A stretch of 64,000 nt of DNA from NCBI GenBank assembly GCA_017525915.1, contig JAFXSC010000010.1, positions 1-64,000 on the forward strand. The letters are read 5' to 3'. This document shows, piece by piece, positions 416 through 9,166 of the stretch (its first letter is position 1; each line of letters starts with the position of its first letter). Made by a program: the position numbers and the translations under genes. Origin of the DNA: Ruminococcus sp. (GTDB lineage: Bacteria > Bacillota > Clostridia > Oscillospirales > Ruminococcaceae). The notes beneath the pieces are model-generated. The model did no database searches. It was given only the letters and a program-made list of their open reading frames with translations, and was not told where the DNA came from.

Positions 416-475
416 TGCACTGAAAAATGCAATCATTATTATACGAATTATAACATATTCAGTGCATTTTTTCAA
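416..475 (-). promoter_or_regulatory. promoter of the NERD gene inside a 9-bp inverted repeat
   Basis: On the minus strand TTGAAA (475-470) and TATAAT (452-447) are separated by 17 bp. The -35 overlaps the stop region of the upstream methyltransferase gene. A perfect 9-bp inverted repeat, TGCACTGAA at 416-424 and TTCAGTGCA at 458-466, surrounds the -10 and the start region, which would suit an operator. The repressor is unknown. Confidence 0.6.
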
Positions 476-1122
476 TATTTTTTTGTCTTTTGCGGTAGCT
501 TAATTCTCACAAAAACCACCCTCACCAGTGCCTTGCCGTTGGGGAGCGGTTCGGACTTCTGCAATATCAATGAGCAGCCTATCTCGTTCATAGCAGCCGT
601 CAGCGCCTTTTCCTCCATTTGGTGATGAACTTCGTCAAGCCTGTCGAAGGCTCGCAGGTACGGCGACTCCGATACCCATTGCTCCTCGTCTGAGTTTATC
701 TGTATCACGCAGGAAACGTACTCGGGAGCGGTCTGCAAAACGGCTCGCTGAAACGCTCCGTAGCCGATGTACTCGATAAGCAGATTCGCTATCAGGAGCT
801 GTGCCTTTGGGAGCTTCTCCGCTTCGTTTATAAGGTCGATGTGCAGGCACTCCAGAACTCCCGAGAGCTGAGTATATCGCTGAGATACCGCACGGAGGTA
901 GTCCGCATTGATATCAACTCCATAGACTGTGCGGAACTTGTCAGTGCCGATGTGTTCAAGTCCGTTTCCGCCTGCAACTCCCAGAACTGCGGAAGTCTCC
1001 ACAGGGTAGGCGGCGAACTGCTCCTTCATTATGGAATCGAGCGCCTGAAGCTGCCGCACAGATTCAAGGCTCATGTGCTTTTCGTAGTCGTCAAGACTTA
1101 TTTCTTCCCATGGGTTGCTCAT
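472..1122 (-). CDS. class I SAM-dependent methyltransferase-like protein
   Basis: A 216-residue protein read from ATG at 1122, which overlaps the stop of the preceding kinase-like gene as ATGA and has GGAAAGG eight bases upstream. A GTG nine bases further up is also in frame but sits inside that ribosome site. Motif I of class I methyltransferases is visible as GVAGGNGLEHI near residue 50, followed by the acidic strand end VDINADYL (motif II) and a hydrophobic strand LLIANLLIEYIG (motif IV region). The substrate is unknown. The four-base overlap suggests translational coupling with the upstream P-loop protein, so the two probably act together, but this is inference. Confidence 0.65.
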   Translation of the reverse strand: MSNPWEEISLDDYEKHMSLESVRQLQALDSIMKEQFAAYPVETSAVLGVAGGNGLEHIGTDKFRTVYGVDINADYLRAVSQRYTQLSGVLECLHIDLINEAEKLPKAQLLIANLLIEYIGYGAFQRAVLQTAPEYVSCVIQINSDEEQWVSESPYLRAFDRLDEVHHQMEEKALTAAMNEIGCSLILQKSEPLPNGKALVRVVFVRIKLPQKTKKY

Positions 1123-1631
1123 ATACAGCACCTTTCCAAATCGTATTCATCATTTATCAGAAAATAGTCAAGTCCGTAACTGATACAGCCGCGGAGATAT
1201 TCCTGATTGTCTTGTATTATATCCTCAATACTGAGGTCATTGGAGAGCCTTTTCTCGATAGCGTTCCCGAAGCTGACAATGTCACTGAAATGGCTGGTTA
1301 TGTAGCTTTCACTCATAACAAGGCAGATGTATTTTATCTGCGACAGATAGTCGGCGTCAAAGCTGTTCTTCCAGTCAAAGGGAATATAGCAACCCTCGAT
1401 TATGAGATCCTGTTCGTTTTCAATGGCAGTCTTTATCATCTCTTTCAGGATATTCCAGAGGTATGCCGTCAGCTTGTCGTCGTCATAGGGCGTGAGCTCG
1501 GTCTGACCGCTTCTTATAAGTCCCATTTTCAGGTGGTCGATAGACAGGTAAGGGTACTTGTATTTTTCAAGCAGTTTCTGCGCGAGAAGCGTTTTCCCTG
1601 TATGCGAAGCACCTGTTATCAGTATTATCAT
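1119..1631 (-). CDS. small P-loop NTPase, nucleotide or sugar kinase-like
   Basis: A 170-residue protein beginning MIILITGASHTGKTLLAQKL, with the Walker A motif GASHTGKT at residues 7-14. The segment around residue 74, DLIIEGCYIPF, looks like the Walker B strand of adenylate-kinase or zeta-toxin-like small kinases. There is no clear lid domain, so a specific kinase name is not justified. GGAAAGGAG lies upstream of the start and a strong leftward promoter sits at 1693-1665. It forms a two-gene operon with the methyltransferase-like gene through an ATGA overlap. Position next to a tRNA array may be chance; a role in RNA end chemistry is only a speculation. Confidence 0.6.
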   Translation of the reverse strand: MIILITGASHTGKTLLAQKLLEKYKYPYLSIDHLKMGLIRSGQTELTPYDDDKLTAYLWNILKEMIKTAIENEQDLIIEGCYIPFDWKNSFDADYLSQIKYICLVMSESYITSHFSDIVSFGNAIEKRLSNDLSIEDIIQDNQEYLRGCISYGLDYFLINDEYDLERCCI

Positions 1632-1693: not shown

Positions 1694-1830
1694 TAAAAAA
1701 CAGCTCCTGTCCGTGTGGATGTGAGCTGTTGTCAGTTATCGTACAATATGCGACAACTCGTTTCAACAGGAACTGTTGCGTTTTTTGCAACGGTTCATTT
1801 TTCAGTTGTTGCAAATAATACAACAACTCA
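1694..1830. other. hairpin-rich intergenic segment with a leftward terminator
   Basis: Successive inverted repeats built on GTTG/CAAC words: AACAGCTC (about 1699-1706) with GAGCTGTT (about 1722-1729); CAACAG with CTGTTG around 1764-1779; AACTGTTGC with GCAACGGTT around 1771-1795; and AGTTGTTG (1804-1811) with CAACAACT (1821-1828). The leftmost hairpin is followed on the minus strand by six U residues, so it would end a leftward transcript before the kinase promoter. No convincing ORF was found here. Confidence 0.4.
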
Positions 1831-1870
1831 TAGTAATGTGCAGGAAATGCATATTGCTATTATTATAATA

Positions 1871-1920
1871 TACCTGTGGTTTACTTGATTTTTCCAAAAA
1901 GCTATGTTATAATACAGGTA
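1871..1920 (+). promoter_or_regulatory. promoter of the leader-tRNA unit with flanking inverted repeat
   Basis: TTGATT at 1885-1890 and a perfect TATAAT at 1908-1913 are 17 bp apart. A 7-bp inverted repeat, TACCTGT at 1871-1877 and ACAGGTA at 1914-1920, brackets the promoter and the expected start site. This is a plausible operator, perhaps for the HTH protein encoded inside the same unit (inference). Confidence 0.75.
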
Positions 1921-1987
1921 AAGTCAGAACAGGAACGGTCGTGAACGACCACTGTATTAAAAATTATTTTGAAAGGAGATACCTAAA

Positions 1988-2113
1988 ATGAACGCATTTG
2001 CTATGTCTTATCTGTATAGCGGAATAACACTTAGCCTTAGTCTCAGCCTCGAACTGGAAGAGACTCTTATTGTGCTGCATACAGAACATAGTGCAAATGA
2101 TACGGTCATTTAG
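1988..2113 (+). CDS. 41-residue leader peptide of the tRNA unit
   Basis: A short ORF with a strong ribosome site (GAAAGGAG at 1971-1978) and ATG at 1988-1990, ending in TAG at 2111-2113. The peptide core reads TLSLSLSLELEETL. Codons 15-25 are CTT AGC CTT AGT CTC AGC, then CTC GAA CTG GAA GAG. Each belongs to Leu-CUN, Ser-AGY or Glu, the codons expected to be read by tRNAs with anticodons AAG, CAG, GCT and TTC encoded just downstream. Two CAT (His) codons follow at 31 and 34. There is no signal peptide, domain or other sign of a working protein. A 5'-UTR hairpin (GGTCG/CGACC, 1937-1950) lies before the ribosome site. The ORF is followed by an intrinsic terminator before the first tRNA. I read it as an attenuation leader whose translation is sensed; the product itself is probably not functional. 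Confidence 0.8.
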   Translation: MNAFAMSYLYSGITLSLSLSLELEETLIVLHTEHSANDTVI

Positions 2114-2185
2114 GGACTTGATTCAGTATAGATCCTTGAATAGCCAGATATAGCACCGTCTGTATGCAACAGGCGGTGTTTTTTT
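2011..2185 (+). promoter_or_regulatory. attenuator: four mutually exclusive pairing segments
   Basis: Segment 1 (2011-2020) can pair with segment 2 (2077-2085) over nine pairs with one bulge. Segment 2 (2076-2085, TGCATACAGA) is perfectly complementary over ten bases to segment 3 (2159-2168, TCTGTATGCA). Segment 3 includes the end of the 5' arm of a terminator whose 3' arm (2170-2178) is segment 4. So 2:3 prevents the terminator and 1:2 permits it. Segment 1 lies in codons 8-11 and segment 2 in codons 30-33. A ribosome halted in codons 15-25 would leave segment 2 free while tending to hide segment 1. This logic matches trp/his/leu-type attenuators; its operation here is inferred. Confidence 0.75.
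2154..2185 (+). terminator. intrinsic terminator between leader ORF and first tRNA
   Basis: CACCGTCTG (2154-2162) pairs with CAGGCGGTG (2170-2178) through nine pairs including one T-G, with a 7-nt loop, followed by seven T residues (2179-2185). The first tRNA starts four bases later, so readthrough is required for tRNA expression from this promoter. Confidence 0.85.
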
Positions 2186-2188
2186 CAT

Positions 2189-2267
2189 GCCCGCATGATG
2201 GAATTTTGGCATACATCCCTGCCTAAGAAGCAGGTTTTTGCGAGTTCGAATCTCGCTGCGGGTACCA
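2189..2267 (+). tRNA. tRNA with AAG anticodon (Leu), short variable loop
   Basis: Cloverleaf: acceptor GCCCGCA/TGCGGGT (G-T at the first pair), anticodon stem CCTGC/GCAGG with loop CTAAGAA, giving anticodon AAG at 2225-2227, variable loop TTTTT, T arm GCGAG-TTCGAAT-CTCGC, discriminator A and encoded CCA. The D arm resembles leucine tRNAs, with GGAATTTTGGCA, but its stem is only three pairs. Leucine tRNAs normally have a long variable arm; this one has five bases. A34 is rare in bacteria outside tRNA-Arg. Whether LeuRS charges it is unknown. Confidence 0.75.
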
Positions 2268-2270
2268 GAT

Positions 2271-2346
2271 GCTCTTGTAGCCCAACGGCAGAGGCAGCGG
2301 TCTCAGAAGCCGCACAGTATGAGTTCGAATCTCATCGGGAGCACCA
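2271..2346 (+). tRNA. tRNA with CAG anticodon (Leu), short variable loop
   Basis: Cloverleaf: acceptor GCTCTTG/CGGGAGC with two G-T pairs, D stem GCC/GGC, anticodon stem GCGGT/GCCGC with loop CTCAGAA, giving anticodon CAG at 2304-2306, variable loop ACAGT, T arm ATGAG-TTCGAAT-CTCAT, discriminator A and encoded CCA. The body is class I although the anticodon is leucine. It starts three bases after the preceding tRNA. Confidence 0.75.
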
Positions 2347-2385
2347 ACTTTATCAAGGATCATATACTGAAAGGAGTTGCTGAAA

Positions 2386-2610
2386 ATGCCTATCATTGAT
2401 GTGAAAGCAACAGGCACTAACATAAAGAATATCATAAAATCCAAGGGCTTCAAGATATCCGATGTGCAGGCCCGATGCGGTTTCAATACTCCGCAGGCGA
2501 TATTCAAGTGGATGCGTGGGGATGCTGTCCCCACTATCGATAATCTGATAATACTGGCGGATATGTTTGATGTGCCGATAGATAAGATAATAATCGTCAC
2601 CAGAATATGA
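2386..2610 (+). CDS. small XRE-like HTH protein inside the tRNA array
   Basis: A 74-residue protein from ATG at 2386, with AAAGGAG nine bases upstream; a TTG nine bases earlier is less likely. The sequence IKNIIKSKGFKISDVQARCG, then NTPQAIFKWMRGD and PTIDNLIILADMFDVPID, follows the five-helix XRE/Cro fold in which the recognition helix is NTPQAIFKWM. It fills almost the whole protein, so there is no separate effector domain. It lies 40 bases after the second tRNA and 12 bases before the third, so it should be cotranscribed with them and subject to the same attenuation. A likely role is autoregulation through the inverted repeat around the promoter; this is not shown by the sequence. Confidence 0.75.
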   Translation: MPIIDVKATGTNIKNIIKSKGFKISDVQARCGFNTPQAIFKWMRGDAVPTIDNLIILADMFDVPIDKIIIVTRI

Positions 2611-2622
2611 GTGACGATACAT

Positions 2623-2743
2623 GGGTAAGTGCGCCGAATTGGTGAAGGCAGCGGATGCGCTGTGAGCGTAGCGAGGAAGTCCCCTTGGGGGATAAATCCG
2701 TGACATAGAAACGTTGTAGGTTCGAGTCCTACCTTACCCACCA
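2623..2743 (+). tRNA. irregular tRNA-like gene, anticodon uncertain (GTG in one fold)
   Basis: Acceptor GGGTAAG/CTTACCC, T arm GTAGG-TTCGAGT-CCTAC, discriminator A and CCA are intact, and the D arm GCC-GAATTGGTGAA-GGC is that of leucine-type class II tRNAs. The middle is about 120 nt overall, too long for a normal tRNA. Fold A: anticodon stem GCGGAT/ATCCGT (2651-2656 with 2696-2701) and a 14-nt variable arm, leaving a 39-nt insertion in place of the anticodon loop. Fold B: stem TGCG/CGTA with loop CTGTGAG (anticodon GTG, His, 2662-2664) and a roughly 44-nt variable region holding the hairpin TCCCC-TT-GGGGGA. The two could coexist as a nested arm. It may be a pseudogene. Confidence 0.5.
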
Positions 2744-2750
2744 AAAATAT

Positions 2751-2827
2751 GGCGGATTCGTCTAACAGGTCAGGACAAGAGGCTTTCAATCTCTAAATGT
2801 CGGGTTCGAACCCCGCATCCGTCACCA
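2751..2827 (+). tRNA. tRNA-Glu (TTC), divergent copy
   Basis: Acceptor GGCGGAT/ATCCGTC without mismatch (one G-T), D stem GTC/GAC, anticodon stem AGAGG/TCTCT, loop CTTTCAA with anticodon TTC at 2785-2787, variable loop AAATG, T stem with one T-C mismatch at its base, discriminator A, encoded CCA. Its body differs strongly from the ordinary tRNA-Glu on the other strand at 3141-3215, so it is not a simple local duplication. Confidence 0.85.
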
Positions 2828-2829
2828 AT

Positions 2830-2924
2830 GGTCGCATAAGCCTAACTGGTAAGGCAGCAGTTTGCTAAACTGTGAGTAATCGGGATATTCCGATGTCTGA
2901 GTTCAAGTCTCAGTACGGCCGCCA
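2830..2924 (+). tRNA. tRNA-Ser (GCT)
   Basis: Anticodon stem GCAGT/ACTGT with loop TTGCTAA, anticodon GCT at 2864-2866, and a proper class II variable arm with stem ATCGG/CCGAT (2879-2894). T arm CTGAG-TTCAAGT-CTCAG, discriminator G and encoded CCA as expected for serine. The acceptor stem has one C-A mismatch (2835 with 2915). Confidence 0.85.
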
Positions 2925-2930
2925 AAAAGA

Positions 2931-2967
2931 AAGCTCCGTCTGATAATGTGTCAGGCGGAGCTTTTTG
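2931..2967 (+). terminator. terminator of the tRNA unit
   Basis: AAGCTCCGTCTGA (2931-2943) pairs perfectly except for one T-G with TCAGGCGGAGCTT (2951-2963), with a T run to 2966. It lies six bases after the last tRNA. Confidence 0.9.
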
Positions 2968-3053
2968 CATAATAAAAGCCAAATGAATATTATTCATTAA
3001 TATGCATAAGTGATACTGTGAAAAAGCGAGGTTTATACGCTGAAAAATTTGCG

Positions 3054-3075
3054 TAGCGTACAAATAGCGTACAAA
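3054..3075. repeat. tandem 11-bp direct repeat between the tRNA unit and tRNA-Glu
   Basis: TAGCGTACAAA occurs twice back to back (3054-3064 and 3065-3075). Such GTACAAA-type repeats beside tRNA genes can be tyrosine-recombinase arm sites, but no integrase gene is present in the window. The rest of 2967-3100 is AT-rich with no gene. Confidence 0.5.
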
Positions 3076-3083
3076 CTCATTTT

Positions 3084-3131
3084 TTAGGAAAAAAGAAAAC
3101 CCACAAACGGCTATTTTAAGCCATCTGTGGG
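3084..3131 (-). terminator. terminator of the leftward tRNA-Met/tRNA-Glu unit
   Basis: CCCACA (3100-3105) and GGCT (3109-3112) pair with AGCC (3119-3122) and TGTGGG (3126-3131) around an internal loop. On the minus strand the hairpin is followed by a U-rich tract. Confidence 0.75.
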
Positions 3132-3140
3132 ATTGCTAAA

Positions 3141-3215
3141 TGGTGACCCGTACGGGAATTGAACCCATGATTCCGCCGTGAAAGGGCGATGTCTTAACCT
3201 CTTGACCAACGGGCC
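3141..3215 (-). tRNA. tRNA-Glu (TTC), ordinary copy
   Basis: Minus strand starts GGCCCGTTGGTCAAG, with anticodon loop CTTTCAC giving TTC, T loop region GGGTTCAATTCCC and encoded CCA. The body is the standard Firmicute tRNA-Glu. Confidence 0.95.
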
Positions 3216-3218
3216 ATT

Positions 3219-3295
3219 TGGTAGCGGCAGTCAGATTCGAACTGACGACCAATCGGGTATGAACCGAGTACTCTAGCCAACTGAGCTATGCCGCC
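3219..3295 (-). tRNA. tRNA-Met (CAT), elongator type
   Basis: Minus strand starts GGCGGCATAGCTCAGTTGG. The anticodon loop TTCATAC carries CAT, the T loop is TTCGAAT and CCA is encoded. It lacks the three G-C pairs typical of initiator tRNA. An Ile2 tRNA with modified C34 cannot be excluded from sequence alone. Confidence 0.85.
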
Positions 3296-3330
3296 ACATA
3301 TGAACGCAGGCAGTCACCTACGACCATATT

Positions 3331-3359
3331 ATTATATTACTATTTGCTCCGGTTGTCAA
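3331..3359 (-). promoter_or_regulatory. strong promoter of the tRNA-Met/tRNA-Glu unit
   Basis: Perfect TTGACA (3359-3354) and TATAAT (3336-3331) with a 17-bp spacer on the minus strand. Confidence 0.9.
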
Positions 3360-3444
3360 GTGCAGAGCTAAATAATTGTATATTTGCACAACCGAGAACG
3401 CTTTGCCGATGTGCTTTTTGTCACAAAAGTGTAAGACTGTGCCG

Positions 3445-4470
3445 TCAGTTTATGAAGAATGTGAAATACTCCCCGGCAAGTTCTATCCGCGTGCCGTTCT
3501 GGAGTCTCGCATATATCCCGTTGAAGCGCATAGCCGCAAGGTCATAGCCCGAGGGCAGAGGCCAGCCGTTCACACGGGTACCGTTTTTCGAGGCGAGGTC
3601 GGCAATGTAGTAGTTCTTGCCGTCGCAGAATATCAGGGCATGGCGCTTTCCCACGCGCTTGTTCTTTGTGACCGCAAGGTCGGGCGCGACCTTTACACCG
3701 CTGCCGTCAATGCCTACCCTTCCTATGACGCAGTTCCTCGATGTTATGGGGAAATCCTTCCCGGTCTTCTCGTTTCTTATGAAAGCACCTGCCGAAACGG
3801 GTGCGGGTCCCGGGGGCGCAGGGACCTCCTCCGGAGAGCGTCCGAAGGAAGTATCCGAGCTTACAAGCGATACGGTAACCGGTGGATTAAGGGCTTCCGT
3901 AGATGAAAGCACGGAGGTGACCTCCCCGATGTTCTCGTCGAGGAAATCTGCTGTCGCGGCTGCCGAGAAGGTCTGCTGCTGTCTTACAAAACGGCTGAAC
4001 GCCTTTATCTTCTCATTGCTGCCGGAAAGCCTTGCTGTCTCGGCAATGCCCAGCATGAAGCTGAATATCTGCTTGCTCTCGAGCGGTGAATAGTTGTTCT
4101 GTACCGGACAGAAAACGAGCTCGAGCATTCGCTTGTTCACGTTGTAGAAGGCGTTCTTCATGTCCGGAACGAGCTTCTGAACGGTCATGCGGCTCTCCTC
4201 GAGGTTGTTCATTATCGTTATGAGCTGACGGGCAATGGCAAGAACTTCCTCCCCGGTCATGATGTTCTTGCTGAGGTAGGTGTTGAGGGGGATACATTTA
4301 TTTGCATCGAATACTACGGTAAGGCTCTCCTCGTTGAAGCTGATAGCCTTCATTATGCCCTCCGGCGGCTCGGAGAGCATTTCGAGCTCGCGGCGGTTGA
4401 AGCCCTCGCGCTTTGTGAGAGTACATACGAGGACGTGGCCCTGACGTATCTTTGTATACTGGAATTTCAT
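3445..4470 (-). CDS. FHA-domain protein with DUF6382-like N-terminus (T7SS locus)
   Basis: 341 residues, last gene of the leftward secretion locus. The N-terminal 170 residues look like the DUF6382 family often paired with FHA domains in clostridial secretion loci (family recalled, not searched). A Pro/Ser-rich linker follows (around residues 195-230, PEEVPAPPGPAPVSAG). The C-terminal FHA domain shows the expected IGR, GKRHA and LASKNGTRVNG elements, which bind phosphothreonine. No transmembrane segment is evident. The N-terminus could stand in for the EssB pseudokinase component, which I do not otherwise find; that is a guess. The gene overlaps the upstream WXG-like gene region by only a few bases of spacing, suggesting one operon. 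Confidence 0.75.
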   Translation of the reverse strand: MKFQYTKIRQGHVLVCTLTKREGFNRRELEMLSEPPEGIMKAISFNEESLTVVFDANKCIPLNTYLSKNIMTGEEVLAIARQLITIMNNLEESRMTVQKLVPDMKNAFYNVNKRMLELVFCPVQNNYSPLESKQIFSFMLGIAETARLSGSNEKIKAFSRFVRQQQTFSAAATADFLDENIGEVTSVLSSTEALNPPVTVSLVSSDTSFGRSPEEVPAPPGPAPVSAGAFIRNEKTGKDFPITSRNCVIGRVGIDGSGVKVAPDLAVTKNKRVGKRHALIFCDGKNYYIADLASKNGTRVNGWPLPSGYDLAAMRFNGIYARLQNGTRIELAGEYFTFFIN

Positions 4471-4477
4471 ACGGATA

Positions 4478-4795
4478 TCATGTCCATCCGCTCACCTTTG
4501 ACGCCTGTTCGACTGATTCGGACTGCGCCTTCTTGTAAAGGTCATGTGCCGCCTTGAGAAGCTCTCTGTACTTTCCGAGGTTCTCGCCTGTGACCGTGAT
4601 TATGCCGTCCGGAGCGGTCATAGCGTTCCATTTCAGCATGAACGCATCGTTGTCTTCTGCCCTCCATGCGCTCCTGGACTGCTCCACCTCAGACTGCATG
4701 ACTGCGAGCTTTGCCGCTCTGTTCAGCAGATAGGTGGATATTGCGGTCTCTGCACTCTTTATATCATCGAGGTTAACGTTGATATAGTTTCCCAT
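4478..4795 (-). CDS. WXG100-like secreted protein, WxA variant
   Basis: 105 residues from ATG at 4795, with GGAGG six bases upstream; longer in-frame starts run into the preceding gene. The helical-hairpin pattern with the turn SAWRAEDNDAF around residues 42-52 matches the turn SAWDAEDNLAF of the WXG100 protein at 10247-10549, so the two are paralogues. The central residue is Ala rather than Gly. The tail has the repeated helical register expected for ESX substrates. It is paired with the gene at 4809-5102, echoing the second pair upstream. Probably a secreted partner or chaperone-like helper for one of the hydrolase proteins. Confidence 0.75.
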   Translation of the reverse strand: MGNYINVNLDDIKSAETAISTYLLNRAAKLAVMQSEVEQSRSAWRAEDNDAFMLKWNAMTAPDGIITVTGENLGKYRELLKAAHDLYKKAQSESVEQASKVSGWT

Positions 4796-4808
4796 ACTCT
4801 GCCTCCTG

Positions 4809-5102
4809 TCACTTGAATGCCTCGCTGAGAGAGGTGTTCTTTGTCTCGACTTCCTCATAGCCGAGGGCTACTCTCTCGCGGAGAAATCTTATATAATCGG
4901 CGATTATCTTATACTGTGCCTCCATGCAGTTCGATTTTATTGAATTGAACAGGGAAACAGCCTTCGTACCGGCTGCGCCCTCCCACGAGGAACCGAGCCT
5001 GCTGACCGCGTTTGAAGGCTCTGATGCCGAATCGGATATCTTTTCGTTAAGGTTCTCGATATCGTTTGCAAGAGCCTTTACCTCTGTTGTATTGAGATAC
5101 AT
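4809..5102 (-). CDS. WXG100 family protein
   Basis: 97 residues with the WXG turn as GSSWEGAAG near residue 38-46, between two amphipathic helices. The C-terminal stretch GYEEVETKNTSLSEAFK is nearly the same as the end of the WXG100 protein at 9932-10234 (GYFDVETRNTNLSEAFK), so these are paralogues. WXG100 proteins are small helical-hairpin dimers exported by EssC-type systems. The tail may hold the export signal that the ATPase recognises (YxxxD/E-like, here YEEVE). It stops 14 bases before the next WXG-like gene, so the pair is probably cotranslated. Confidence 0.85.
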   Translation of the reverse strand: MYLNTTEVKALANDIENLNEKISDSASEPSNAVSRLGSSWEGAAGTKAVSLFNSIKSNCMEAQYKIIADYIRFLRERVALGYEEVETKNTSLSEAFK

Positions 5103-5114
5103 AAGTCCGCCTCC

Positions 5115-5315
5115 TTATTCGTTGACCTGTGAGCGGTCGATGTTCTGGAGCTTGCTCTTAGCCCTGCTGAGGCTGCCTATCTTGTCGCTTATGACGCTTG
5201 CGAGCTTCTGCTCGGTGTATATCCCTGTGAACTTCGACCGGAGCTCGTTCTCTATGTCGCTGAGCTCGTTGATAATACTGGAAAGCTCGTTGATAACAGC
5301 GGTAACTTCGTCCAT
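5115..5315 (-). CDS. small coiled-coil protein of the T7SS locus
   Basis: 66 residues from ATG at 5315 with GGAGGG six bases upstream. The start lies just beyond the stop of the hydrolase gene (5318), so the two genes nearly touch. The N-terminal half, MDEVTAVINELSSIINELSD, has a strong heptad-like pattern of Leu/Ile and acidic residues. No cysteine, signal peptide or membrane segment. I do not recognise the family. By size and place it could be a partner of the hydrolase or of the WXG100 proteins, as LXG-type effectors often travel with two small helical proteins (established for LXG systems, inferred here). Confidence 0.6.
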   Translation of the reverse strand: MDEVTAVINELSSIINELSDIENELRSKFTGIYTEQKLASVISDKIGSLSRAKSKLQNIDRSQVNE

Positions 5316-5317
5316 AC

Positions 5318-6787
5318 TTATCCCTCCATCATACTGAGTATCTGTCTTTCTGCGTCCTCGAACCTCTGTGCAGTATCGTTGAGGCAGTTGGCGCAGCCGT
5401 TTATCTTGTCCGACCAGCATATCTTCAGATCGGACGACATGAGGTTCCAGAGGTCAGTCCACTTGACCTTCCAGTAGAGCCCGTCTATGCGTTCGTCGAG
5501 CGCACCGAGCCTGCCGTTCACAGCCCAGAGCCTTCCTGCAAGACTGCGGAGGTCATCGGTGTGGAACCGGAGCACGTTCTGTACCGCAAGATAATCCTGG
5601 GCGGCACGGTAATCGGCATCGAACGTCCGCTTGCACCATTCTGCGAAATCACGGGCTGCCTGTACCACAGCGGCACAGAATTCGCTTATCTTTTCCGCTG
5701 CCCATTCAATAGTGCTGCTTATAGCCTCGCACACATAATTGATGAGGTTGTTGTATATCCACTCGCGGAACTCACCGTAGAATTCGATCAGGACAACGGC
5801 TGCCGCAACGGCGACTACTCCCGGATGGGTATAGGCGAACAGAACGAGTATTGGTATGGATATCTCCGGGTGTGAGAAGCCTGCCATCATGCCTGTTGCG
5901 ATGATATCCCTCAGCGTGTCGCCTATCGGTGCGGGAAGGTCGTCCACGAGGTTGGAGAACTTCTCGGTGATAGCCGCAATGAAGTCCTGATGTCCCTCCT
6001 TGACGTTGCCGTTCTCATCGAAGTCTATGTAGTCGGTGGAATGTCTCACGAATCCGCCTATGACCGGTATCATTACGGCATTTATCGTGACCTGTATGAA
6101 TTTTGAATGCTCACCGGGAAGCTCTTTCAGCATCGAGCCGACGAAGCTCCATTTGTAGTGGTCGACCTTGCCGGCGTTCTTGTCGATGAGCTCTCTGTAA
6201 TGGTCGATAAACTCCTGCGAGAAGCCGGGACCGTCAAAGCTCACGCAGCGCTCGAAGTTCTTTCCGACACCGCATTCGTCTGCGATGATAGTTGAGTATT
6301 CCGCAAGATTTCCGCCGAGGGAATGTCCCGTGAGATTGACCTTGTCATAGCTGTTGAGCAGCGCGGCATTGTCCTTCAGGAACTGCTGCGCGTCACGGTA
6401 CTGGTTCGTTTCGGTGGAATTGAGAAGCCCGAGGTCAGCTTCTATCCAGTCGTGCTGGATATTCTTCAGCGATGTCTCGTCGGTACCCATAGCCTCGCTG
6501 CCGCGGAAGGCGGTTATGGCATTGCCGTCGCCTGTATCGATTATGCAGGCTGCAAAGCCGGTAGCATCGTTGTTGTCGCCGACTGCCGTTATCGACCACT
6601 TGTCCCAGAGCGATTCGGGTATGCCCTTCTGTTCAAGCTCTGTTCTGATGGTGTCGCTGCGGTCAGCAAGTTCCCTGAGGGATACACTGGTCTGCCCCTC
6701 GCTGGTGAACGATGTATAGGTATCGGTGACGTTTATATACGCTATCTGCGTTGCGAGCTGGAGCTCCTTGTCTGTATATGTTGCCAA
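5318..6787 (-). CDS. Mbeg1/DUF2974-like alpha/beta hydrolase with shared C-terminal domain (putative T7SS effector)
   Basis: 489 residues. The N-terminal half is an alpha/beta hydrolase: a strand-rich start, then AFRGSE near residue 95 and the nucleophile elbow TGHSLGGNLAEY near residue 155, followed by CVSFDGPGFS. This is the Mbeg1-like (DUF2974) pattern seen in lipase-like proteins. Around residues 280-330 there are hydrophobic stretches (IPILVLFAYTHPGVVAVAAA). The last 95 residues, beginning DADYRAAQDYL, are almost identical to the end of the 555-residue hydrolase at 7499-9166. There is no signal peptide. The location between WXG100 genes suggests an ESX/T7 substrate whose recognition module is at the C-terminus. 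Substrate (lipid or ester) is unknown. Confidence 0.7.
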   Translation of the reverse strand: MATYTDKELQLATQIAYINVTDTYTSFTSEGQTSVSLRELADRSDTIRTELEQKGIPESLWDKWSITAVGDNNDATGFAACIIDTGDGNAITAFRGSEAMGTDETSLKNIQHDWIEADLGLLNSTETNQYRDAQQFLKDNAALLNSYDKVNLTGHSLGGNLAEYSTIIADECGVGKNFERCVSFDGPGFSQEFIDHYRELIDKNAGKVDHYKWSFVGSMLKELPGEHSKFIQVTINAVMIPVIGGFVRHSTDYIDFDENGNVKEGHQDFIAAITEKFSNLVDDLPAPIGDTLRDIIATGMMAGFSHPEISIPILVLFAYTHPGVVAVAAAVVLIEFYGEFREWIYNNLINYVCEAISSTIEWAAEKISEFCAAVVQAARDFAEWCKRTFDADYRAAQDYLAVQNVLRFHTDDLRSLAGRLWAVNGRLGALDERIDGLYWKVKWTDLWNLMSSDLKICWSDKINGCANCLNDTAQRFEDAERQILSMMEG

Positions 6788-6793
6788 GCTGCA

Positions 6794-7480
6794 TCACTCC
6801 TTTATCGCGGCACCGGTATCGCCTGCCGTAAATGCTGCTTCTCCGCCGTGTACGCTGATACCGAGCACGAATGCCGGAGAGAAGCCTCTGAGCCTCATAT
6901 CCGATATCCTCGGCAGCTCCGCAAAGAGCTTGCTGCATTCCTCATAGCCGGCATCGGGAAGCAGGAACAAGGCTGCCTTAATGTCTTTTCCGGCGTATTT
7001 CCGGCTTGTTTCCGTCAGCACCGAGAGTACCGCATCGGCTTCGGTCCGTGTAAGGCTTTCCGCTTTCACGGCGATACGCGTGAGCAGGAACTTCGTCTGT
7101 GAGGCTTCCACGAACTCTGCCGGGTCTGTCACAGAGGCGTTCCCTTCGCACTCAGCTTCAAACAGAACTGTCATGGACGAGGCGGTAATGCCGTTCCCGG
7201 CAAGTCCTTCCGCGATCTCGCTGTCAATGGCAGAAGCTGCCCTTCTTGCCGGAAGATCGTCCGTTATCGTTCTTTCGAGCGGTCTGTACACAACTGTGAA
7301 GCCCGGCGAAGAATTGTCCGCGGTACGGCAGAAGAGCGTAGTGGTCTCGGTATTGAACCTGTCACCTATATGAGTTGTCGTGAAGTCTGTGCCGTATTTC
7401 TCCGAGAGGAGCTTTTCAACGGTAGCCACAGGCCCCTGAACATATTCCTTCATTCCCGTAAGGGTGTTGAATAAAAGCAT
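6794..7480 (-). CDS. unknown T7SS-locus protein, paralogue of the gene at 9171-9785
   Basis: 228 residues, with GGGGGG about ten bases before the start. The segment KYGTDFTTTHIGDRFNTETT resembles KYGREFTFTSPFDKFQPTTY of the protein at 9171-9785, and both sit directly upstream of an alpha/beta hydrolase gene, so this is one half of a duplicated two-gene module. No membrane segment or signal peptide. The gene ends seven bases before the hydrolase start. The tight pairing suggests an immunity protein, chaperone or adaptor for the hydrolase; nothing in the sequence decides which. Confidence 0.6.
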   Translation of the reverse strand: MLLFNTLTGMKEYVQGPVATVEKLLSEKYGTDFTTTHIGDRFNTETTTLFCRTADNSSPGFTVVYRPLERTITDDLPARRAASAIDSEIAEGLAGNGITASSMTVLFEAECEGNASVTDPAEFVEASQTKFLLTRIAVKAESLTRTEADAVLSVLTETSRKYAGKDIKAALFLLPDAGYEECSKLFAELPRISDMRLRGFSPAFVLGISVHGGEAAFTAGDTGAAIKE

Positions 7481-7498
7481 AATATCCCCCCAAGAGCC

Positions 7499-9166
7499 TC
7501 AGCCCATCATTCCAAGGAGCTGCTGCTCGGCATTGTCAAATCGGTCTGCTGTATCGTTAAGGCAGTTCGCGCAGGCGTTGAGCTTCGTTGACCAGCATAT
7601 CTTCAGGTCGGAGGACATGAGGTTCCAGAGGTCGGTCCACTTGACCTTCCAGTAAAGTCCGTCGATGCGGCTGTCAAGGTCGCCGAGCCTGCCGTTCACA
7701 GCCCAGAGCCTTCCTGCAAGACTGCGGAGGTCATCAGTGTGGAAGCGGAGAGTGTTCTCGTTCTTGATATAGTTCTGCGCGGCGCGGTAGTTCGGGTCGA
7801 TGAGCTTCTTTATGTTGTTCTTTATCGACTCCGCAACGTTTGCGATGAATTCGAGCACCTTGTAGAGCTTCTCGCCGAATTCCGCGAGCTTTGAAACGAA
7901 CGAGACGAATTCGTAGATCACAAATCCCAGACCTTCAAGACCGTACTGTATGAAGCCTGCCGCGACGTTGCATATGATATCGACGAAAATATTGGAATCC
8001 TCGCGGTTGTCTATCTGGAAGACGTACTTCCTCAGCAGGTCGGTGATGGTGCTGTGTATGAACTTCTGACCGTTCCATGTGAACAGTATCTCCTTGAAAA
8101 GCGCAGGGGAACGCTTGATAAGTCCGATGTATTCCTCAAGCGATGCGCCCTCGCCGTGAAGACCGTGCCCCTGACCTATTGTGTCTTCGAGTATGGTCAT
8201 TATGGAGCGGCAGACGTCCTCGCGCTCCTCGGGCGGGAGCTTCATGATGTTCTCGCTCAGCGACTTCGCAAGGACTGCAAGGTCACGCTGATACTTCGTG
8301 GTCTCGTTGAAGCCGTCGCCGCCGTAGTCGTAGAGATTGCCCTCCACGCGGATATTCTTCCAGTCAATATTGTCGCCCTCCGGCGTCCTTACAAGACCGT
8401 GGGAATTGGCTGCATCGTAGGTGTCACAGGTGGTTTTTATGTATATCGTGTTCTCGTCGGGGACTACCTTGATGCCGAGAACGTTGACGAAATCATTGTC
8501 GCCGCAGATGGAGTACATCTTTCCGCGCTGTTTCTCGTAGAAATCCTCGCCGTAGAGCTGCTTGAAATAGGCTATCGCTTCCGGCGAGAAGCCCTGTCCG
8601 TCGAATGAATCGCACTTGTCAACGAGGTAGGCATACTTTGAAGCGAGGGTAACGAACTGTGCCTCGTTTCCGCCCTTTGAATGTCCTGTGACGATAACGT
8701 TCGCGCTCTCATCTACATTGAGGCTGCTCATTACCGAATCGAAATACTCGGCAGCGTCCTGCTGATAGGGCGAATACTTCTTGTCGAAGGCATCGCCGTT
8801 GTCGTACCAGCGTCCCTCGCCTGTGCCGCGGTAGGCAACGTATACATCAGTTACGTTATCGCCGTCCTTGCGGTAGAATGCCGCGCCCTTAGCGCCGTCA
8901 CTTGCGGAATATCCGGACTGATCGCTGCACGAGTGCATGATGAGGCTTCCGAACTCATCACCCTTCGGCGAATCGAGATACTGCTTTGCCGCAACAACTG
9001 CCGCACGGCAGCCATTGTCCTTGAGACCGTCCATTCCATTATAGTAAAGATCATTGACTATGTCTTTAACAGACTGATCCTTGTATTTGTCAGCACCGAG
9101 GGCATCGCTGTACATCAGGGTATCGAGTGCCAGAGATATATCCATATCGCTTGTCAGTCCTGCCAT
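7499..9166 (-). CDS. alpha/beta hydrolase with shared C-terminal domain (putative T7SS effector)
   Basis: 555 residues. The N-terminal part carries AYRGTGEGRWYDN near residue 115, the nucleophile elbow TGHSKGGNEAQF near residue 160 and CDSFDGQGFSPE, so it belongs to the same Mbeg1/DUF2974-like group as the protein at 5318-6787. A hydrophobic helical stretch around residues 415-450 (GFIQYGLEGLGFVIYEFVSF) precedes the C-terminal 95 residues, which match the other hydrolase almost residue for residue (LRFHTDDLRSLAGRLWAVNG, then WKVKWTDLWNLMSSDLKICW). The catalytic halves are far more diverged than these tails. This points to a conserved delivery domain joined to variable enzyme domains. The start has GGAGGTGAGG upstream. 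Confidence 0.7.
   Translation of the reverse strand: MAGLTSDMDISLALDTLMYSDALGADKYKDQSVKDIVNDLYYNGMDGLKDNGCRAAVVAAKQYLDSPKGDEFGSLIMHSCSDQSGYSASDGAKGAAFYRKDGDNVTDVYVAYRGTGEGRWYDNGDAFDKKYSPYQQDAAEYFDSVMSSLNVDESANVIVTGHSKGGNEAQFVTLASKYAYLVDKCDSFDGQGFSPEAIAYFKQLYGEDFYEKQRGKMYSICGDNDFVNVLGIKVVPDENTIYIKTTCDTYDAANSHGLVRTPEGDNIDWKNIRVEGNLYDYGGDGFNETTKYQRDLAVLAKSLSENIMKLPPEEREDVCRSIMTILEDTIGQGHGLHGEGASLEEYIGLIKRSPALFKEILFTWNGQKFIHSTITDLLRKYVFQIDNREDSNIFVDIICNVAAGFIQYGLEGLGFVIYEFVSFVSKLAEFGEKLYKVLEFIANVAESIKNNIKKLIDPNYRAAQNYIKNENTLRFHTDDLRSLAGRLWAVNGRLGDLDSRIDGLYWKVKWTDLWNLMSSDLKICWSTKLNACANCLNDTADRFDNAEQQLLGMMG

Follow-up and report, generated by a model that had tools for sequence, protein, structure and literature searches.

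The first 64,000 nucleotides (nt) of contig JAFXSC010000010.1 from Ruminococcus sp. (assembly GCA_017525915.1), here called the window, carry at positions 1,871 to 2,967 a small operon of transfer RNA (tRNA) genes. This operon is very probably controlled by transcription attenuation of the type found in amino-acid operons, and its sensor codons appear to be those read by its own tRNAs. Leader-peptide attenuators are known from the trp, his, leu, pheA and ilv operons. As in these systems, a short leader open reading frame (ORF) with a ribosome site, a run of regulatory codons, 1:2, 2:3 and 3:4 pairing alternatives and an intrinsic terminator precede the genes. Unlike in these systems, the product consists of tRNAs and a helix-turn-helix (HTH) gene instead of biosynthetic or synthetase genes, one sensor spans several amino acids and matches the product in what would be a direct feedback, and the arrangement also occurs on viral contigs. 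The downstream genes do not serve to make, import or charge the sensed amino acid; they encode tRNAs and the HTH protein. The leader, its ribosome site, the terminator, the covarying alternative pairings (in two leader systems, A and B) and the tracking of codons and anticodons over many loci are documented by sequence comparison.

The control region of the window is composed of the following elements:

1871-1877 and 1914-1920: inverted repeat TACCTGT/ACAGGTA, flanking the promoter.
1885..1913 (+): promoter with a -35-like TTGATT at 1885-1890, a 17-nt spacer and TATAAT at 1908-1913, read directly.
1973..1978 (+): Shine-Dalgarno sequence AAGGAG of the leader, read directly.
1988..2113 (+): leader ORF of 41 codons, MNAFAMSYLYSGITLSLSLSLELEETLIVLHTEHSANDTVI, read directly and with homologues found.
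2011..2017 (+): region 1 (TCTGTAT), partner of region 2.
2021..2071 (+): sensor core, codons 12-28 (GITLSLSLSLELEETLI), which differs with the array among relatives.
2076..2085 (+): region 2 (TGCATACAGA).
2159-2168 (+): region 3 (TCTGTATGCA), part of the 3:4 terminator.
2154..2185 (+): 3:4 intrinsic terminator, stem 2154-2163 / 2169-2178 with a T-run at 2179-2185.

Behind this terminator follow, in this order:

2189..2264 (+): tRNA-Leu (AAG), Rfam RF00005 at 49.4 bits, missed by ARAGORN; variable loop short by eye.
2271..2346 (+): tRNA-Leu (CAG), variable loop short by eye.
2386..2610 (+): XRE-type HTH protein of 74 amino acids (aa), within the operon; Pfam HTH_3 PF01381, 5e-9.
2623..2742 (+): broken tRNA-Tyr-like gene whose anticodon loop carries an insertion of about 35 nt, 39.3 bits as tRNA and Tyr-like by ARAGORN.
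2751..2827 (+): tRNA-Glu (TTC).
2830..2924 (+): tRNA-Ser (GCT).
2932..2966 (+): second terminator-like hairpin with a T-run at the array end, read directly.

A preliminary description of this DNA had placed the promoter, the 41-codon ORF, the ribosome site and the terminator, and direct reading bears out its coordinates as well as its three pairings (2011-2020 with 2077-2085, 2076-2085 with 2159-2168, 2154-2162 with 2170-2178). The tRNAs that it listed, with anticodons AAG, CAG, TTC and GCT plus one odd tRNA-like gene, were all recovered by ARAGORN or Rfam RF00005. It did not mention the XRE HTH gene within the array, nor how widespread the operon family is.

Codons 15-25 of the leader are all Leu-CUN, Ser-AGY or Glu (11/11). 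Leu, Ser, Glu and Tyr together make up 0.26 of residues in the window ORFs of at least 200 aa, so eleven fitting codons running would be expected with a probability of about 4e-7 or less at a given start. Over the whole leader, 17 of 41 codons fit the array tRNAs, all eight Leu codons are CUN and five of six Ser codons are AGY; the codon list thus returned every count that had been reported earlier.

Over 10 nt, region 2 is exactly complementary to region 3. The 5' half of region 3 is also part of the terminator stem, so that the 2:3 and 3:4 pairings are mutually exclusive. When charged tRNA is ample, the leader would be translated, region 2 would be unavailable to region 3, and the 3:4 terminator would form and end transcription. 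When charged tRNA for a core codon is scarce, the ribosome would stall in the core, region 1 would be withheld and 2:3 would form, letting RNA polymerase continue into the genes for the tRNAs and the HTH protein. Once made, these tRNAs would relieve the stall and close a negative feedback loop. We infer stalling, readthrough and feedback from the sequences, the loop being the simplest reading because most of the sensed codons have their reading tRNA in the operon itself.

Homologous loci with a leader ahead of a tRNA cluster, for which the preliminary description had called, were found in many rumen Ruminococcus, in class-level relatives and on contigs of the IMG/VR collection. A search with the leader peptide gave matches in 5 of 396 family genomes, at six loci (two in one genome), each with a tRNA cluster downstream. 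GAAAGGA at the leader ribosome site showed no variation across a six-locus alignment. A covariance model of the leader-terminator region (E<=0.01) matched 42 of 396 family genomes and 27 of 100 genus genomes. Thirty-nine loci were strong (E<1e-9), the window included, and 32 of them had, by ARAGORN, a same-strand tRNA no more than 3 kb away; no downstream tRNA was found within this distance by the same program at the other seven (G393, G035, G412a, G415a, G453b, G416 and G402), of which G416 and G402 run into a contig edge. Three weak matches that were inspected (G218, G132, G365; E>1e-9, family and genus scans) had no leader or array. Some other weak matches may be system B, since several weak leader matches at HTH loci turned out to belong to it.

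A scan with the HTH protein was followed up for the best 80 of 96 stretches. They were mostly records titled Ruminococcus (R. flavefaciens, R. albus and metagenome-assembled genomes, many from rumen), and the remaining ones were titled Oscillospiraceae, Clostridiales or Clostridia, plus one Lachnospiraceae. A strong leader match was present at 49 of these 80 loci (50 matches). Among 18 loci from an HTH-profile search of the class and order, leader and array were found in two (L217, L220); five had no motif by script and the rest no array. The genus g162, of the same class, had the HTH gene in 37 of 79 genomes. At L103, L112 and L132, leaders (truncated in L132) were observed with arrays replaced or deleted, and the HTH gene is cut at the identical place in L112 and L132.

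The sensor core lies between pairing regions 1 and 2 and counts about 17 codons. Across loci, differing arrays tend to have differing leader codons, and the tRNA sets combine up to eight unrelated amino acids. Leaders of the type SEHYEESFYHESEE accompany Tyr/Glu/His/Ser sets, and those of the type YSFFQYQEES accompany Gln/Phe/Tyr/Ser/Glu sets. Within system A, the core SEHYEESFYHESEEAL goes with sets drawn from Tyr, Glu, His and Ser(GCT) and no Leu tRNA; the sets behind the cores GITLSLSLSLELEE or GTLLSLSLELEE contain Leu, in most cases Ser and frequently Glu or Tyr, and lack a His tRNA. The cores YNELYLSLYLESEE or YSELYLSLYLESEE stand before four or five Leu tRNAs, Glu and Tyr, and the core ELHLGLVLESEE before Leu, Tyr and His tRNAs. 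At G451, which is without a Tyr tRNA, the core SEHHESFSHEGEE has His and Ser at the positions where its relatives have Tyr. At L107/G035, a locus without tRNAs, the core has drifted.

System B is located upstream of a second HTH type. Its leader FEYQQYSFFQYQEESS is followed by Glu, Gln, Phe, Gln, Tyr and Ser tRNAs, FFAQQFQFRFFRQWQEK by Trp, Phe and Gln tRNAs, and DFDDYQCDFSFSFAWQDDSS by Asp, Gln, Cys, Gln, Trp and Ser tRNAs, among which no Phe tRNA was found. The set of FDFQQSSYFFQQEDNGS is Gln, Cys, Phe, Gln, with the Cys codon in region 1; the Cys of FDFQQSSYFFQQ leaders likewise lies in region 1, outside the core. Three further leader types were found in g162: C (YCLYSESYESSLQSKSEW) with sets such as Ser, Trp, Leu, Glu, Tyr; D (NKQFNNKQFMQFCKNQKCF) with Gln, Cys, Phe, Lys, Lys, Gln and Asn tRNAs; and E (IGITATKAYDFTVDTFVIDAPVLGT) with Ile, Ala, Val, Asp and Met tRNAs, plus Gly and Thr by eye. 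The Lachnospiraceae locus L215 holds two operons on opposite strands, one with the leader SYLNSESLSLSLSYEHSYELS and Leu, Glu, His, Ser and Tyr tRNAs, the other with QWFNNICQIKDAQFANIKKQ and Phe, Asn, Ile, Lys, Gln, Trp and Cys tRNAs. An Ile(TAT) tRNA, which is unusual in bacteria, is present in the L269 and L272 arrays and on the L215 minus strand, and the L269/L272 leader contains ATA codons.

For the statistics, A/B leaders were picked by a script that used homology and position, a region-2 peptide motif and a GTCTG-type terminator motif. The 67 leaders obtained form 21 clusters at 70% core identity, with 21 of the 67 in one cluster; they include one locus fetched twice (e.g. L097 and L189), copies that the clustering merges. 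The script missed the L126 leader, and the second L174 leader was counted as system B in the shuffle tests. Six C representatives were hand-picked for distinct cores in the tests with 32 and 37 representatives, and a full C test used all C leaders in 40 fetched loci (28, of which 27 with tRNA, giving 22 distinct core/set pairs). For D, E, C2, L215 (both strands), the viral contigs, L309 and L312, the leader was selected by eye from the short ORFs that have a ribosome site, a choice that biases these leaders toward a match. Anticodons were set by hand to TTC at L106 2549 and L168 4334 (ARAGORN) and to TAA at L303 3895 (ARAGORN: AAA). Gly(TCC) and Thr(TGT) of L269 were read by eye. A selenocysteine call by ARAGORN in L215 and tRNAs more than 800 nt past the last array tRNA (e.g. 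L096 8739) were excluded.

Leader codons fit their own downstream anticodons better than those of shuffled arrays, within each of the three systems and in the pooled set. The core amino-acid match was 0.603 for own against 0.508 for shuffled arrays in system A (12 representatives, p=4e-4) and 0.484 against 0.392 in system B (9 representatives, p=1.2e-3). The effect was small in system C (0.537 against 0.504 over the 22 pairs, p=1e-4). With 32 representatives pooled, the match was 0.609 against 0.345, a value reached in 0 of 20,000 shuffles. When whole leaders were scored, without any choice of core, the mean z score of 37 representatives was 3.03 against 0.92 (largest shuffle 1.80; 0 of 20,000 shuffles, p=5e-5); the own array ranked first of 37 for 10 leaders and in the top three for 23. 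As in amino-acid-operon attenuators, the regulatory codons are concentrated in the core, with a match of 0.60 there and 0.20 in the remaining leader over 16 A/B clusters with complete arrays. His codons occur in 10 of 11 cores with a His tRNA and in 1 of 21 without (32 representatives), and within system C in 2 of 3 and 1 of 19 (p=0.04). Choice between synonymous codons points the same way: for Ser, the ratio AGY:UCN stands at 39:10 in A/B cores, against 17:23 over the remainder of these leaders (p=3e-4).

The RNA pairings vary together. Over 57 distinct A/B triples, the 2:3 free energy (dG) is -17.5 for own partners, -15.9 for swapped partners (p=2e-4) and -7.6 with region 2 shuffled; for 1:2 the values are -15.5 (own), -13.3 (swapped, p=2e-4) and -8.2 (shuffled). 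By eye, CTGCACCC stands against GGGTGCAG in L191 at the place of CACAC/GTGTG in others, and TGTACAGAC against GTCTGTACA in L105. Conservation of the 2:3 pairing, on which the earlier proposal depended, is thereby found in A/B together with that of 1:2. A hairpin with a T-run was found for all 67 A/B leaders, which had been preselected for a nearby GTCTG-type motif. Outside A/B, an automatic 2:3 test was clear (z -2.8 to -4.7) for D, viral leaders 2 and 3, both L215 leaders, L309 and two C leaders. The array shuffles, the A/B covariation and the Ser codon class together support the proposal of the preliminary description that the attenuator controls tRNAs matched to its own leader codons.

The same organisation was observed on contigs labelled viral by their source collections. 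IMG/VR contigs L303 (253 kb) and L302/L305 (55 kb) carry three consecutive arrays with their own leader before each. On L303, leader 1 (MKIYETINFTMIVDHPATRGFSF...) precedes Ala, Val, Arg, Gly, Arg, Thr, Asp, Pro and Met tRNAs, leader 2 (MMYQSISNQIKNIRNQFCYKNWFNC...) Phe, Ile, Lys, Lys, Trp, Gln, Cys, Asn and Arg, and leader 3 (MTTFRSLYLHSELSESLYSSLAF...) three Leu (one anticodon by eye), Glu, His, Ser, Tyr and Ser, with an HTH gene among them. The amino acids of the arrays are present in their own leader in 8/8, 8/8 and 5/5 cases, and the three arrays jointly serve all 20 amino acids. Leaders 2 and 3 exceed background with z=4.3 and 2.9. Among five phage records from tblastn that were examined, leader and array were found in two, L309 and L312, both human faecal records titled 'Bacteriophage sp., UNVERIFIED'. 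L312, with the leader ...KFCKSSYSFKHSSYSKK... and an array of Lys, Phe, Ser, Ser, His and Cys, ranks its own array first. No tRNAs were found in phage records L311 and L313, nor in L304 and L307 from the viral scans. In the human faecal record L310 (MT839421.1), an HTH gene is followed by Leu, Glu and Tyr tRNAs, and a leader was not recognised.

Several observations weigh against attenuation by the operon's own codons. Loci within a system are related. Own arrays rank 29 of 37 for L174, 23 for L309 (array Phe, Lys, Glu, Asp; a weak match), 11 for L169 and 10 for L176 and L182. Whole-leader z is only 1.7 for viral leader 1 and 1.8 for E, and the excess of viral leader 1 over background is weak (0.58 vs 0.47, z=1.7). 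Individual amino acids also fail to fit: His is missing from the core of L176, whose array also has a His tRNA; L122 has His codons and no His tRNA; the second core of L173 has four Phe codons where no Phe tRNA was found; and the Leu-type arrays of L109, L110 and L116 have an intact Tyr tRNA and no Tyr past region 1. Trp codons are found in 6 of 6 cores with a Trp tRNA and in 1 of 26 without (32 representatives), a contrast that hinges on the chosen C loci because system C cores keep Trp in 10 of 14 pairs without a Trp tRNA; they keep Leu in 11 of 11 pairs without a Leu tRNA. Across systems, Ser AGY:UCN is 29:8 where GCT is the only Ser tRNA and 12:17 where TGA is present (p=0.002), a difference confounded with lineage, as every array with TGA in this set comes from system C or from L215. 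For Leu, UUR codons amount to 9 of 45 where a UUR-reading tRNA is present and to 0 of 10 where it is missing, which is no significant difference (p=0.14). The automatic 2:3 z lies between -1.4 and +0.1 for four of six C leaders, C2, E, L312 and viral leader 1, perhaps because a wrong hairpin was selected in these cases. At G393 and G412a the leader is intact and the array has been lost. Finally, how region 1 would be withheld by stalls late in the core is not obvious.

It is unlikely, although it deserves some weight, that the attenuator senses amino-acid starvation with the HTH regulator as its key product and the tRNAs as passengers. The HTH protein is the most constant protein of the operons, stands directly after the terminator in most operons of the SEHY type, and is retained in L107/G035, where no tRNAs were found. 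Starvation sensing for the HTH gene would not predict sensor codons that track the tRNA set in A, B and C, nor sets that mix so many unrelated amino acids; furthermore, the tRNAs precede the HTH gene in several Leu arrays (the window, L096, L098), and L097 has no HTH gene close behind its leader. A function of the leader peptide itself, as a toxin, signal or precursor, with its likeness to the tRNA set secondary, is very improbable. The N- and C-terminal leader parts are indeed conserved within a system, but they include RNA regions 1 and 2, which covary mutually and with the terminator, the middle of the leader differs with the array, and Ser codons are chosen differently in the core and in the rest; on the pairing covariation and this Ser codon choice, the peptide was rejected as the product. 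Chance with shared ancestry, meaning a few ancestral leader/array pairs copied often and leaders picked for their match, could draw on the inflated counts of related loci (21 clusters for the 67 A/B leaders, one holding 21) and on the ten or so leaders outside A-C picked by eye, but it is hardly credible given that the match reaches significance between the clusters of A and between those of B, for which homology and position decided the choice of leaders, and also within C, that several leader families of different sequence fit different tRNA sets, and that the shuffle tests and the core-versus-rest match rule chance out.

T-box riboswitches sense uncharged tRNA by direct RNA contact, without translation. 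The operons would resemble them in placing transcription under the control of tRNA status in Firmicutes. T-box control was ruled out, as no T-box match was found in the window or the other loci searched (gathering level), nor in 1700-3400 at E<=1.

The window array is small, with four intact tRNAs, in a genome of 3.09 Mb (67 contigs) with 63 RF00005 matches. Ordinary Leu, Tyr, His, Glu and Ser tRNAs sit elsewhere in this genome, which makes the array redundant with the host set. Five array tRNAs have 64-68% identity to the nearest of 12 ordinary tRNAs compared. The two array Leu tRNAs measure 76-79 nt with CCA, against 85-87 nt for five ordinary Leu tRNAs, and by eye they have no long variable arm. 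A tRNA with the Ser GCT anticodon and no long variable arm was also seen elsewhere in the genome (G000:C33:14987-15059, L018). A second array (broken Tyr, Glu, His, Ser) opens contig C49, its leader side lost at the contig end. The broken Tyr-like form recurs there (C49:6-126, = L007 6-126) and, by ARAGORN, in G436 and G429; this recurrent gene with its insertion may be dead, or may be processed some other way.

We infer that the tRNA attenuator responds in nature to tRNA destruction, by anti-phage tRNases, toxins or virus-induced loss of tRNA, and not to amino-acid starvation, since a cell without the amino acid would gain nothing from extra tRNA and each sensor spans several amino acids; the presence of the operons on viral contigs and the array tRNAs very unlike ordinary ones favour the same trigger. 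A tRNA-cutting toxin or phage response had been suggested before, and the finding of the same operons on viral contigs makes it a more plausible candidate. We lean towards the idea that viruses and Clostridia of the gut are equipped with a self-monitoring emergency kit for translation, made of reserve tRNA operons. Each operon would be switched on by the destruction of one of its own tRNAs, because its leader is spelled in the codons that these tRNAs decode. If so, the leader core would be an evolvable and readable list of the tRNA losses that an operon expects. The defence and counter-defence idea would become directly testable, as the leader would state the losses being answered, and leader sequences might predict still-undiscovered tRNA-cutting systems. 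The operon would also be a natural design for tRNA-depletion sensors.

These operons share features with tRNA array units, which according to the available text of two reports are known in Firmicutes and mycobacteria as well as in their phages and plasmids, and which include XRE and HNH genes (PMC5966550, PMC12803027); an antidefense role has already been proposed (PMC12803027). Common to both are a dense tRNA cluster redundant with the host and an XRE gene, together with GOLLD RNA in L303/L305 and an HNH match at the viral arrays. GOLLD RNA in mycobacterial arrays appears in a reference title in PMC12286853. In the contigs studied here, GOLLD RNA lies within the first viral tRNA array (L303 1666-2102, L305 3568-4003), and an HNH/homing endonuclease gene match adjoins the viral arrays, beside the first one on L303. 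Unlike in the units as described, there is a putative attenuator: 'leader' and 'attenuat' are absent from the main texts of PMC5966550 and PMC12803027, and 'attenuat' and 'leader peptide' from the available text of PMC12286853.

In parallel, host systems that deplete tRNAs in phage infection and are countered by phage tRNAs have been published (PMC10264068, PMC11555353, PMC13096335, PMC12851939, as far as their available text goes). Phage tRNAs that evade anticodon nucleases are described in PMC10264068, where evasion by anticodon-loop changes is proposed, and in PMC11555353. The present arrays resemble them in providing spare tRNAs that would replace host tRNAs destroyed in defence; a difference lies in the mode of evasion proposed there, and the available text of PMC10264068 contains neither 'attenuat' nor 'leader'. 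No earlier description of attenuator control of tRNA arrays was present among the matches listed in the open literature, outside which most subscription papers lie. The array units, their XRE/HNH genes and the antidefense role are already in print. An attenuator class of the kind proposed here would act directly on the supply of tRNA, with a codon-by-codon match between sensor and product, and would bear on the old question of why phages and bacteria keep redundant tRNA arrays.

The HTH protein is probably an autoregulator. A TATAAT-like pattern was found upstream of all 67 leaders, by a loose pattern of four variants with no chance control. The inverted repeats round the promoter are a candidate HTH operator in this sequence, unproven because such repeats over the set only slightly exceed shuffles (mean arm 6.08 nt vs 5.33 over 62 upstreams, a marginal excess).

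Other genes adjoin the window array. An S-adenosylmethionine (SAM)-methyltransferase-like and a P-loop kinase-like gene lie at 472-1131 (-) and 1119-1631 (-), with weak Pfam support. Methyltransferase homologues were noticed by eye behind the second array of this genome (L007 from ~809) and behind the G295 array, and a kinase homologue behind the G488 array; positions of such homologues include those downstream of arrays in L097 and L129. On the other side, 3445-9166 (-) encodes an FHA protein, a WXG100-like protein that narrowly misses the Pfam cut-off and two Mbeg1/lipase-like proteins related to each other in their C-terminal parts, a neighbourhood that looks like type VII secretion.

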